From: Asterias amurensis
Lineage: Eukaryota > Echinodermata > Asteroidea > Forcipulatida > Asteriidae
Direction of reading: 5' to 3'
NCBI RefSeq assembly: GCF_032118995.1
Contig: NC_092650.1
Coordinates: 22,392,001 to 22,456,000, forward strand
DNA length: 64,000 nt
Shown: positions 25,001-31,000 of the stretch, in pieces
Layout: every line of letters begins with the position of its first letter
Numbering within the stretch: position 1 is the stretch's first letter
The notes under the pieces: generated by a model
The model's input: the letters and a program-made list of their open reading frames with translations, nothing else
What the model was told of the DNA's origin: nothing
Database searches by the model: none
Position numbers and translations under genes: made by a program

Positions 25001-28000
25001 CCAAACTTGTTTTTTGTAAAACAAGAAACAAAACAAACATTTACCTCAATGACAAGGCATTGAGGTAATACAATAAAAGAATGTTTAGCGTCACCACTCA
25101 TTTTCTTTTTGGGGTCGCATGGATTTTATATGCAGAATGAGATTTTTAAACCATAAAATGACAACTGAAACATCAGAAAAGAAAAAAATACTTGAGCGTC
25201 AGGAGGGTATGGCCTGTCCCAGTGTCAAGGTCTTAAAACAGATCATTTAGGTCTATAGTTTCCATGGAGGTAGCACAGTGAAAGTAAGCTACAACGGGGC
25301 TTTTAAAACTGTACAAACTATTAAATAAAAACCACTGTAAACATGTTTAAAGGCAGTGGACACTATTGGTAATAACTTTAAAAATTTTTTAGCATAAAAC
25401 CTTTCTTGGTGACGAATAGGGAGAGGTTAATGGTATGAAACATTGTGAGAAACGGCTCCCTCTGAAGTCACATAGTTTTTGAAAAAGAAGTAATTTTCCG
25501 CGAGTTTGATTTCGAGACCTCAGATTTAGAACTTGAGGTCTCGAAATCAACCATCTAAACACACTCAACTTCGTGTGACAAGTTTTTTTTTCTTTCATTA
25601 TTATCCCGCAACTTCGATGACCGATTGAGCTCAAATTTTCACAGGTTAGTTATTTTATGTATATGTTGAGATACACCAACTGTGAAGGCTAGTCTTTGAC
25701 AATTACCAATAGTGTCCACTGCCTTTAAGAACTCAGATGCTAAAACAAATGTTCTTATTCTTTTGATTTATTTCTGTGCACTTCATCCTTCACTTGTAGT
25801 ATACTCGGGTAGATTTTGAAGATGTAAGCACATTTGGGGAAAACAACCATGTAAATTTTTTTAAAGGGGACAATATCCACAGTTGTGACTAACTGCACAA
25901 ATTAAACCATTCGCACACACTTATGTTTGCCATTTTGTTGTAATTTGCTTGCTTTTGAGGTCATTCTCTTTGTTCTTACTCTGTTCTTGGTCTTCCATGC
26001 TGTTACCAATGGAACAACACTTGATAATCAATAATAATAATAATTATAATGATATTAGTGGTTTCTTATCAAGAACTTTAATGGAGCTTTTGTGTAATGA
26101 AGTTACACCTCTCCCTTACCTATGCCATTTTCACAATCATGTTCATTTACTGTCAACAAACTCCCAACCCTCCCCCTTCTAACGAGCCATCATCTTGACT
26201 CTTAATGATGTTTCCACAATCACCGGTTCTCCCCTACCTATGCCAATTCACAAACATTTTCACTTTTTGTCAACAAATTCCCCACCCTCCCCCTACTAAC
26301 TCGCCCTCATCTTATTGATGTTTCCATAATCACTGCTTCACCCCTCTCCTATCTATGCCATTTTCTCAAACATTTTTCAGTCTTGTTATGATTTGGTTTC
26401 AACAATCTCCCCACTCCCCATTCCCCTGTCTCCCCTACTTACTTTGGGTGCGTACGTTTAGCTTGCCTGGGTCGACCCCGCGGTGCTCACTCGGGTGAGC
26501 CCCTGACAAGAGCTTACCGCACAATCACACTCGCCCTCTCGTGGTGACGGCATGCTCCTCAGGTCACCCCAAGTGACCCCACTCCACAAGCAGGGCACTC
26601 GGGGCTGGCCCGAGTGAGCCCCGTCAAAGCTATTCGAACCTACCAGGGCTGACCAGGGTCGACCCAGGGAAGCTAAAGAACGCACCCATTGTTTCCACAA
26701 ACTTATCCACAAACGCTTTTCCCCTCATGGTGATGCTATATCTGTGTGTACCTGTACGCTGCAGGGAAGGGGACTTTGATTTCAATTGGGCCGACGTCGG
26801 CTGGATGAAGGAATTCTTTGATCACTTCTACATGCAGGAGCATGTCAGGATTAATCACTTTAGAAACCACTACGAGGTTAGCCCAAGTTAGAATAGAAAC
26901 TTCACATGAAGACATTTGAATGGGTAGTCGGCCATCTTGGTTCAAATTTAAAAGTGTGCAATATAACCCTCCTACTATTGGTGACTTTCTTGAGTGAGTT
27001 GACTAATCACTTGAAACCTCTCAGCTGCACGAGTGGTGTAATGATGTCATGACTGTGAACAAAACTTAAGTGTGGACATGCTGTGGATATGCCTTTTTTG
27101 GCGCTGTTCTTTGAAATTCGTTCTTCTTAAAAATTGTGCAGTGTGCCATGTTGTGGTGGTACAAACTTTGTTTCCTTGCATGATCTTCAAATTTCTTAGG
27201 ATAGCTTTCGCGTAAACTTTGAACACCTCAAAATTTTTGTCGTTCAACCATAATTCTCACCACATTTTGTGAAATACACACTGAAGGGGATTTACGTATA
27301 GAGGTTAAAGGGGGGTAAGTTCAAAGTAGATCTTTAAGACAGTGGACACTATTGGTAATTGTCAAAATCCAGTCTTCTTACTTAGTGTATCTCAACATAT
27401 GCATAAAATAATAAACCTGTGAAAATTTGAACTCGATTGGTCATCGGAGTTGCGAGATAACTATGAAAGAAAAAAACACCCTTGTCACACGAAGTTGTGT
27501 GCTTTCTGATGCTTGATTTTGAGACCTCAAATTCTAAACTTAAGGTCTTGAAATCAAAATTGTGGAAAATGACTTCTTTCTTGAAAACTACGTCACTTCA
27601 GAGGGAGCCGTTTCTCACAATGTTTTATACTATCAACCTCTCCCCATTACTCGTTACCAAGAGATGTTTTTTGCTAATAATTATTTTGAGTAATTACCAG
27701 TAGTGTCCACTGCCTTTAACTTCTGTCTGAAAGGGTACTTTTGTTTAAAAACTTGAAACTAATACCGTGCTGCATCTTGTTGATGACCTTTCTGTTACAA
27801 TAGAAAAACACATTTTATGACTCGTTGGAAAGACAAATGCATGACATTTTTATTTCTAGAAAACAATAACAAACCGTCACCACAATTCTTTTCAATTTTG
27901 TGCATCAACTGCAAAATTTTGAAATTGGCTTGTGCGACAACTTTAGAGATTGCGCCCAACACATTCATCGCATGCTTTAATCTTTTCATTCAAAACCACA

Positions 28001-31000
28001 GTGGATGATATTGACTTGTCTGACAGTAGGAGGGTTTCTAGAATGGTTTGTTGAATGAAGCTGAAGCATTGAATCCAGTATGGCTGTTTACTTATTCAAA
28101 CTGTCTGTGTGGGGTTTTAATGAGGAACAAAGAAAGGCAGACTGAATGAACATTCAGACTTTGAAATATTTTTTTCAGGGTCCCTTAATTGTGACTATCC
28201 AATCGTAGTTTTAAAGCCATGTACATGTATGTTCACTTTAGACTGTCTTTCAGCTGTTTCTCAAATGGTTTGAAAGTAAGTGACAATACTACCTTTGGTT
28301 TTTGTCATTTTGTTCTTAATTTTCTTCCCAAATGTTTCAATTTTGATCTAAAAAAAATTCTTCAAATTTTGTATGATATCATTTGATATATTCAGACACT
28401 TTGTTGGGTAACTTTGTTTCACGAAAACTGTGTCATAAATGAATCAAAACCAAATCGCCAAATCTGTGAAATTTGAGCAAGCACTCCTCCAAATTGCAAG
28501 AGACTTTAAAACCGGGTATAGTCACTAACTTTCTTTACATATTGTTCCAAGTTTGAGATGTCTTTTTTATTTCAATAATTTTGTTTTCCCTCCGGCCCTC
28601 GTGTGATGTCTCGACTGCTTTTGTAGGGATGATTTTGATTTTGACTTTTTCTGGGCGGACCGGGGTTGGATGAAAGATTACTTTGATCAATGCTACATGG
28701 AGGATCATGTCCGCCTCAACCACTTTCGTAATCACTATGAGGTAAGGTCAAAAGGTCATGAGGTCAAAAGGTCTCAAGAAATTTGCAGTTGATTTAAAGA
28801 CGGTGCCTACACTGCCAACAACTGTTTTGTTAGCAATATCAATTCTGTAATGTTCCTTTAATAGAGTGTGGTTTTGAGTTCTGGCTATGACACTAAATGT
28901 CCTTGAGCAAGACACTTGACCCAATTTTAAAATTGGGGAGGTAGTGCTTTCTGCTCTACCGGCTAGGCTTCATTGAAGATACCCAAGCCTACATTCGTAT
29001 GGACTGTGAAAGGGGTAACCCTGTTTCAGCCCTAGGAGTAGGTGGCATTGGCCTCTGGGAAAAAATAATTGTAGCCCACACCTTGAAGTGGCCTTCAAGC
29101 CTTGTGTGCGTCTCCTTTTTTGTTTTGTTTTGTTTTTTTTCTCCAGAAGACTATCAGAGCATACTGATCGAAACGTCGAGTTGAAACCAACTGTTCTTTT
29201 CAGAACCACCCCAACTCATTAGAGATAGTCATTACATGGTGTTACCGCAAACCTTTCTATATCGTATTTCCACCATGCAAAGTTTCAAATCCTACCTAAA
29301 GAAATAATAGACTCGAGTGGGATATAAACTAACAACCTCTGGATTAAATTGGCTATCTACATGTACCGGTACATTTAGCCCTATGTTGTCGGTCTTGCTA
29401 TTTTGTCAATGCCTTTGTTTGGGGTGCCAGTCAAAACCTATACAACAATTAACTGTCGTGTAGCCAGGGTCAAGGGATTGTCCAGTTTACAATAAAACCT
29501 AAGAAGCAATAGCCAGGGGAGACAACTTTTTATTTCAGTTATTAAGTAATAAGCTGGCAAACTACGGAGTCTAATTAAATAATTAGCACTTTGAATTTGC
29601 CGAGTGTATTCTATTTTTATTATTACTCATGTTGTTTCCTTTTTTTAGTTGACCCGCAAGAACTTGATGGTGAAGAATCTGAAACGTTATAAGAAGTTTT
29701 TAGAGAGAGAAGTCAGCAAGGTGGAAGCGTCTTATTGCGACTTCTTCCCAACAACATTTGAACTTCCGGTAAGTAAAAAGTGGCTGACATTTAATTTAAT
29801 TGAAGAAAGTATTATGCATGCTGGTGGAACTTACTTCACGTGACATTCACTTTTACTCCCATCCGCACCGGCTATCAAAAAGACCTATTTGCCCATGGGG
29901 GAGCATTTCCCATTCAACAGTTAGGATCATCCTTATTCCCAATGTTTTTTAGCTGTGCAGCGCCGCCGCGCCGCTGCTAAAACGAAGGAGCACCTGTGCA
30001 ACAGGTTGTGATCCGATTTGTGCATTGTTGCCGCTACGCGCCGCTATATGATTTTTGGTTGTCAGTAATTTGTGTGATTTTTCATAATGTTATACTTTTA
30101 AAATACATCAAATGACAAGGATCTATATGTCAGTTATATAAAACAAATGTTGAGTGGCTTTAAATTGGTTAGAAAAATTTTGATTGTTCCATTTCATTTG
30201 GCTTCGCCTCGTGAAAGTCCAAATTTTACCTTGGGATAATATTCCTCCCATTCCACTCTGAGCCACTCAATAATTGTATACTGTTAAGTTCCGTGCGGTA
30301 TAGTATCTATGCAGTTTGTGAATTCAGAGCTGGCCGGTGCTTGCGTAAAAAGCCTTGGACAAGGCTAGAGTTGAGGATGAGTGTCGTGGGAGATTATTAG
30401 AAAATCTCTTAAATTTGTAACGCCCCAGACTGCCAGTCTTCTGGTGTCTGGGTGGGGCATTGGTTTAATTGAGATGGGCCTGTTAGCCTGTGGGGGTCAA
30501 AGTGTGGGGCAGACTAAGCTTACACTGTTTAGAAGATCGAAGCCATATTTTAATCTGCGGCAATAAAGCTCTCCTTGGACATTGTAGAATGAGTCGTCTA
30601 CTTTCACACGTTCACTTCTTTTTCAGTCCGAGTACCACATGTTTGTGGATGAGTTCAAGAGGAACCCAGGGTCTATCTGGATTATGAAACCCGTCGCTAA
30701 GTCTCAAGGAAAAGGAATCTTCCTTTTCAAGAAACTCAAAGATATTACGGATTGGAAGAAGGTGGGTCAAAGTTTGCTTTATGTTGCCTGTAACAAATGG
30801 TCTAAAGTGAGCATTCAGAAAATATGCACATCATGCTCAAAAACCTGGTTTATACTTCCTTCGAGTGGTTCGTGTCAAGATAGTTCAAAATTAAAGCTCT
30901 GTTGTTGCTGCAAAGGTTTCGGGAAGTTGAGCACAGCTCATCTCTTCAGAATTGTTCTATTGTGGGGTCAAAGTTCAAAATATGAGTAGAGGAAGTTTGA

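Follow-up and report, generated by a model that had tools for sequence, protein, structure and literature searches.

The TTLL9 gene within the 64-kb stretch of Asterias amurensis DNA analysed here (the window) contains two neighbouring versions of one coding exon, A and B, and the sequence evidence strongly supports both as functional coding exons. We consider it very probable that they descend from an old tandem duplication of a single TTLL9 exon, with productive mRNA carrying either A or B alone.

Both exons are bordered by intact AG and GT dinucleotides (ctgcag/GGAAGG..TACGAG/gttagc for A; ttgtag/GGATGA..TATGAG/gtaagg for B), and an initial annotation of this DNA proved correct on their positions, splice dinucleotides and phases as well as on their open frames. 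A and B are neighbouring internal exons, homologous, of similar length and with the same frame on entry and exit. In the splice model, including both yields ..HYEG followed by a stop right after exon A, as had been claimed, and skipping both yields ..VKD and an immediate stop; the latter outcome had been described as a frame shift, and is indeed non-productive, but goes beyond a shift in that translation ends at once. As a stop follows from both exons or neither, only single-inclusion mRNAs would yield TTLL9 enzyme, and the claim of exactly one exon per productive mRNA follows directly from the sequence. A or B alone joins the flanking exons in frame, whereas with both or neither translation halts at the junction; the wrong mRNAs would be expected to be lost by nonsense-mediated decay.

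A nearly complete TTLL9 gene

Judged from the splice model, the TTLL9 gene in the window is nearly complete (Table 1), with exons E6 to E13 (30627-39652) forming a single open frame through to the stop codon. Exon E3 has a tblastn match to human TTLL9 at 24316-24369 (E 0.05). The description of the pair as the fourth coding exon could not be upheld: E3 is the first exon that can be confirmed, the exon or exons with the start codon were not located, and none of 10 candidate ATG-to-donor frames was convincing.

Table 1. Exons of the TTLL9 splice model and repeats around exon A (window positions)
Feature	Position	Strand	Remarks
E3, common upstream coding exon	24306-24389	+	leaves phase 2 (..AAA GA/); splice model
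Exon A (4A)	26765-26876	+	112 nt; phase 2 on entry and phase 0 on exit
Exon B (4B)	28627-28741	+	115 nt; phases as exon A; one codon more
E5, common downstream coding exon	29649-29768	+	phase 0; splice model and match to human TTLL9
E6-E9	30627-30761, 32288-32428, 33487-33574, 34095-34216	+	splice model
E10-E13	35241-35374, 36603-36716, 37785-37909, 39582-39652 (stop TGA)	+	splice model
Inverted pair of dispersed ~390-nt repeats	25347-25733 and 27328-27719 (span 25347..27719)	.	84% identity; exon A between
Fold-back dispersed repeat	26445-26688	+	z -8.7 (26441-26692); 76 nt separate its end from exon A

The spliced model has 414 aa, of which the A/B segment forms residues 28-65. The Pfam TTL match (PF03133; 280 bits, 3.4e-83, profile positions 7-282 of 292) starts at model residue 53, so the A/B exon lies partly outside and partly inside the Pfam domain; its earlier placement just before the catalytic core was nearly right, save for this overlap. 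The domain score is near-equal for the two isoforms (279.7 and 279.2 bits). Aligned with human TTLL9, the model has 281 identities in 411 residues, and its N-terminal part has 104/147 identities to TTLL9 against 64/150 to TTLL1, in a comparison that took in these two human proteins only. On this measure the gene appears closer to TTLL9 than to TTLL1, and the TTL domain together with the likeness to TTLL9 predicts a tubulin-polyglutamylase role for the encoded protein. A search of IMG/VR with the 414-aa model returned one pattern match and no relative.

Divergence of A and B and selection on both copies

The A and B peptides are identical at 26 of 38 aligned residues over the whole segment, and 12 substitutions plus an insertion of one residue separate the isoforms; the 22 matches in 30 residues noted initially hold for the last 30. 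Used as a tblastn query, the A peptide finds exon B at E 4e-19, and the next-best place for either peptide in the 64-kb window reached only E 0.016. Over 37 codon pairs, the NG86 method counted 14.5 synonymous changes at 15.7 sites and 15.5 nonsynonymous changes at 95.3 sites (pS 0.93, pN 0.16), giving a dN of 0.18 with dS saturated, and pS exceeded pN in 5000 of 5000 codon bootstraps. By codon position the differences number 6, 5 and 19 of 37, so that third positions account for 19/30. The combination of saturated dS with this dN indicates that purifying selection has kept both copies since an old duplication.

One copy might instead be a dying duplicate, still open by chance; B (E 4e-9, 20/38 residues) lies further than A (E 7e-14, 26/38 residues) from human TTLL9. 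An open frame by itself is weak evidence for the function of a copy: in simulations of the neutral decay of B (4000 runs), the frame survived in 34% of copies at a distance of 0.3 and in 17-24% beyond, or about a fifth to a third. The AG and GT ends both persisted in 32% of copies at 0.3 and in at most 17% beyond. Of the runs at distance 0.3, 2% retained at least 26 identical residues, which no run did at 0.5, 0.8, 1.0 or 1.5. Low dN against saturated dS, the weight of third-position differences and the intact splice sites of both exons make decay highly improbable. Comparison with human TTLL9 suggests that A is the conservative copy and B the derived one, a call made on 7 sites against 0 or 1, depending on gap placement. 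One version had been said to share its length with human TTLL9, which agrees with the 38 residues that we take the equivalent human segment to have.

An assembly artefact fusing two paralogues or haplotypes would also place two such exons side by side, and is the least credible of the alternatives, bordering on negligible. We found nothing in its favour, the contig is 28.6 Mb long, and in a search of the 491.5-Mb genome the DNA of exon A matched one place. The A and B peptides matched the two exons here and a TTLL1-like gene on C22, which differs from the pair in its exon boundary; their other genome matches had E above 2. These results fit one genomic locus for the pair, in a genome with about 13 loci (grouped by eye) that have TTL-domain matches. 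Separately, AAA encodes Asn in the mitochondrial COX1 of this genome, as in echinoderms, which supports the echinoderm origin supposed initially.

Splice sites, repeats and the enforcement of exclusivity

In known mutually exclusive exons, steric interference operates where donor and branch point lie less than 50 nt apart (PMC5740500). The intron between A and B, at 1750 nt, is not the very short one that such interference calls for, and steric hindrance is therefore unlikely to forbid A-B joining. U12-type donors follow the consensus rTATCCTT, and by eye none was seen at the pair, where gtaagtat, gttagccc and gtaaggtc are all unlike it. Both observations lend some weight to a different reading, in which exclusivity is not enforced at splicing and transcripts with both exons are made as well, acting as poison forms to reduce the output of TTLL9 via decay. 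The stop right after exon A in the both-in message is as this reading predicts, and it is compatible with two productive isoforms; a pure poison role, however, would not account for A and B both having been under purifying selection at the amino acid level. We regard it as a serious possibility, though not the probable one.

The choice between A and B probably falls to splicing regulators, with the splice sites of the two exons, unequal in strength, as their targets. The donor of A (GAG/GUUAGC) pairs with U1 at -5.7 kcal/mol and is weaker than that of B (-10.1 kcal/mol), although other donors of the gene are as weak as -0.5 kcal/mol; that weakest one looks U12-type, and -1.0 kcal/mol is the weakest value amongst the rest. 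Amongst 24 motif-by-intron counts for splicing factors, the top result was not taken as evidence: the A-B intron has two TGCATG, where 0.6 +- 0.7 would be expected. A competing docking/selector RNA structure would have one site complementary to selectors beside each exon. At E up to 0.1, the inverted matches within 24390-29648 of this one species consisted of dispersed repeats, self-palindromes and local hairpins; finding short selectors would take other species.

Exon A lies between the inverted repeats of Table 1, with the fold-back repeat shortly upstream, and a structure formed by the complementary pair could in principle loop out or mask A, favouring B or giving a circular RNA of A. Such a role is unlikely. 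The window holds thirty copies or fragments of the ~390-nt repeat, E10 also lies between copies in opposite orientation, as does E3 if an arbitrary upstream stretch is counted, and chance is thus enough to account for the pair around exon A; the repeats are moreover assumed to be younger than the exon pair. Because E10 and, with that stretch, E3 are likewise flanked, we did not attribute exclusivity to the dispersed repeats, and the inverted repeats around exon A are probably incidental.

Relation to known tandem exons and to TTLL9 function

Mutually exclusive exons arising by tandem duplication are a standard class, many of them frame-incompatible (PMC5740500, PMC9741552), and 377 of 629 human clusters have exons not divisible by three (PMC5740500). 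Like A and B, the human and metazoan examples described there are adjacent homologues of near-equal length and identical phases, in which a large part of the segment is retained and many of the replacements are conservative, and in both cases a length not divisible by three makes joint inclusion non-productive. The differences are that the host gene here is TTLL9 and that this pair is known from genomic sequence alone. Exons 3 and Ab of U2AF1 likewise are two duplicated alternative exons with unequal splicing recognition sequences, but they belong to an unrelated gene and were studied by experiment (PMC5224494).

TTLL9 is described as an elongating alpha-tubulin glutamylase, 'one subunit of a complex' (PMC7970040). 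Within the axonemal alpha-tubulin polyglutamylase it is regarded as a non-autonomous subunit. For its orthologue, TTLL9/TPG1 of mouse and Chlamydomonas, two versions of this segment are not described in the portions available of PMC7970040 and PMC11244163, and we found no report of an either-or exon in TTLL9 in a literature search that covered part of the matching papers. The novelty claimed initially thus stands for the gene, within that coverage, but not for the kind of alternative, a standard class (PMC5740500, PMC9741552). The mechanism is ordinary, and TTLL9 as its place is new as far as the literature search shows. Amongst the matches listed for N-terminal contacts there was no mention of tubulin tyrosine ligase; as far as the accessible text goes, a TTLL11 paper deals with other regions (PMC12366701), and PMC9513239 mainly concerns TTLL3 and human splicing factors rather than an exon pair of the A/B type.

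The two predicted isoforms would share the rest of the model, in which lie the NHFRNHYE motif and almost the entire Pfam TTL match. As they differ in a short N-terminal segment only, its position suggests that the most likely effect is on the docking of TTLL9 on a partner or doublet, rather than on catalysis itself. The initial proposal that A and B tune the choice of tubulin substrate is plausible but unsupported. More speculatively, and with the odds against it, starfish and perhaps all echinoderms may make two TTLL9 enzymes sent to, or acting on, different axonemes, for example those of larval or adult multicilia and of the sperm flagellum. If so, one gene would produce two glutamylation patterns through an old splice switch in a writer of the tubulin code. 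Tubulin glutamylation is usually seen as diversified through many TTLL genes, and choosing between exons of a single ciliary glutamylase would add another route to such diversity. The A and B forms would also provide a natural pair of enzymes with which to probe the role of the N-terminal part of TTLL9.

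TTLL9 gene model

A TTLL9 gene lies on the forward strand of the window, where a human TTLL9 query, not taken from a database record, matches exon by exon over 24316–39649. The model, built from GT–AG sites that preserve a single reading frame, has twelve exons, two of them (A and B) alternative, and encodes 414 aa with A or 415 aa with B. An exon carrying the start codon was looked for in the window and not found, so the model is open at its 5′ end. It is identical to this human query at 281 of 411 aligned residues and matches the Pfam TTL profile at positions 7–282 of 292; over its first 150 residues, 104 of 147 aligned positions agree with the human TTLL9 query versus 64 of 150 with a TTLL1 query of like provenance. 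Away from the exon pair, the intron at 33575–34094 looks minor (U12-type) by the U12 consensus, with donor GTATCCTTT and TCTCTTAAC 20-odd bases before the acceptor.

Features of the window
Feature	Position	Strand	Basis
TTLL9 exon E3	24306–24389	+	GT–AG one-frame model
TTLL9 exon A (alternative)	26765–26876	+	GT–AG one-frame model
TTLL9 exon B (alternative)	28627–28741	+	GT–AG one-frame model
TTLL9 exon E5	29649–29768	+	GT–AG one-frame model
TTLL9 exon	30627–30761	+	GT–AG one-frame model
TTLL9 exon	32288–32428	+	GT–AG one-frame model
TTLL9 exon	33487–33574	+	GT–AG one-frame model
TTLL9 exon	34095–34216	+	GT–AG one-frame model
TTLL9 exon (E10)	35241–35374	+	GT–AG one-frame model
TTLL9 exon	36603–36716	+	GT–AG one-frame model
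TTLL9 exon	37785–37909	+	GT–AG one-frame model
TTLL9 last exon, with stop	39582–39652	+	GT–AG one-frame model
~390-nt dispersed repeat	25347–25733, 27328–27719 and 28 further places		
GC-rich fold-back repeat	26445–26688, 11203–11443, 40952–41137		
Non-LTR retrotransposon endonuclease and reverse-transcriptase frames	17061–17918, 18011–19615	+	PF03372, PF00078
Amino acid permease frame	15798–16454	−	PF13520
Low-complexity block, overlapping frames rich in RSI/DRSI repeats	44083–44641		

A pair of exons made exclusive by frame, and its history

At both exons, A and B, the splice ends are AG and GT, with entry in phase 2 and exit in phase 0. Spliced together, they give the frame GAG GGA TGA; with neither, GA joined to TTG ACC reads GAT TGA. 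As both arrangements end in a stop, a working TTLL9 mRNA carries exactly one of the two, which bears out what the initial annotation had claimed for productive transcripts. Two TTLL9 isoforms are a sound prediction, rather than a demonstration. The build of the pair is ordinary for mutually exclusive exons: 377 of 629 human clusters (60%) are reported to contain exons with a length not divisible by three (PMC5740500). Openly licensed literature was searched, mostly by titles and the starts of abstracts, for exon duplication or mutually exclusive exons in TTLL9 or a tubulin tyrosine ligase, as well as for echinoderm TTLL9. No report of the pair was among the papers listed, a silence that is weak evidence of novelty.

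The two peptides are identical at 26 of 38 aligned residues, including the last eight (NHFRNHYE). B is one residue longer near its start, where EGDFDFN (A) faces DDFDFDFF (B), and the mid-segment differences (A/B) are V/R, E/D, F/Y, H/Q, F/C, Q/E, E/D and I/L. Apart from A and B themselves, the best match to these peptides in the window has an E value of 0.016. The A–B DNA match covers 95 nt and stops 5 nt beyond the donor; the remaining strong matches in the flanks are dispersed repeat.

Nei–Gojobori counting over 37 codon pairs gave 15.5 nonsynonymous changes at 95.3 sites (dN 0.18) and 14.5 synonymous changes at 15.7 sites, a saturated dS that is not convertible to a date because the exon is short. 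Differences at codon positions 1, 2 and 3 numbered 6, 5 and 19, and pS exceeded pN in 5000 of 5000 codon bootstraps. When B was simulated without selection, the open frame survived in 34% of runs at distance 0.3 and in 17–24% beyond, so openness alone says little about coding status; 2% of the 4000 runs at distance 0.3, and no run at 0.5, 0.8, 1.0 or 1.5, kept at least 26 of 38 residues. By these comparisons the duplication is old, with both copies retained as protein. Tandem duplicated exon substitutions are described as mostly ancient, with key residues kept and most changes conservative (PMC9741552).

At 7 positions exon A has the residue of the human query and B does not, and the converse holds at none (one if the gap is set at the first residue); at 7 or 8 positions A and B agree and differ from the human query. 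A sign test by hand gave p ~0.02 (7 to 0) or 0.07 (7 to 1). Judged against this human query, which is not a database record, the ancestral-like exon is probably A, and B the derived copy.

The window belongs to contig C3 of a 491.5-Mb, 23-contig genome, in which exon A DNA matches one place. Among the best candidates, the only ones scored in the peptide searches, an 84-aa query with A matched A, B, the shared downstream exon E5, a gene on contig C22 at E 4e-9 and, with E >2, two other places; a 45-aa query with B matched B, A and one place at E 3.6. The C22 gene is TTLL1-like. A TTL family search yielded 49 matches, grouped by eye into ~13 loci.

Splice choice and possible effect on the protein

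The frame filter certainly operates. Steric interference does not fit as the cause of exclusivity, the inter-exon intron being 1750 nt, and neither does a U12 explanation, as the pair's three donors are not U12-like by eye. By U1 pairing, exon A has the weaker donor of the two (−5.7 kcal/mol vs −10.1 for B); both fall inside the range of the gene's eleven donors (−0.5 to −10.2 kcal/mol). One control known for such exons is competition between RNA structures (PMC6071210). Around the pair, the long complementary stretches between introns are dispersed repeats, and one inverted pair encloses exon A. Because E10 also lies between copies in opposite orientation, as does the shared upstream exon E3 if 15000–24305 is counted as its upstream stretch, we read no mechanism into this arrangement. 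Right after the donor of B, the intron carries several AAGGTC/AGGTCA repeats (28742–28780).

The alternative segment occupies residues 28–65 of the model, the Pfam TTL match begins at residue 53 and a PDB match to TTLL6 spans residues 20–349, which together place the segment on the N-terminal border of the TTL fold. Known TTL structures suggest that it would form one strand and one helix lying outside the ATP-grasp core. Our preferred reading is that the A/B choice may change docking to a partner or doublet. TTLL9 is described as a glutamylase of the elongating type that acts on alpha-tubulin and forms one subunit of a complex, and mouse sperm deficient in Ttll9 beat abnormally (PMC7970040); Chlamydomonas without the TTLL9 counterpart reportedly has less axonemal polyglutamylation and less motility (PMC11244163).

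Repeats and the mitochondrial contig

The ~390-nt dispersed repeat occurs 30 times in the 64 kb, counting fragments down to 60 nt. Its inverted ends are 27 nt long (TTAAAGGCAGTGGACACTATTGG..), and it resembles a MITE-type element with terminal TTAA. In the GC-rich fold-back repeat, the other copies are 74–77% alike to the middle one (26445–26688), which folds with a z of −8.7 and ends 76 nt upstream of exon A. The retrotransposon frames lie 5′ of E3, the first exon in the TTLL9 model, and the RSI/DRSI block had no Pfam match in the single frame tested.

Contig C23 (16,427 bases), examined over its first 9,000, is mitochondrial. Mitochondrial gene order, together with chromosome number, suggests that the animal is a starfish. 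Its COX1 is open under both table 9 and table 5, so openness does not decide the code. Its nine AAA codons fall at sites such as STNHKDIG, GGFGNWL, MNNMSFW and TDRNVNT, motifs in which Asn would be expected, in line with the code shared by echinoderms and flatworms.
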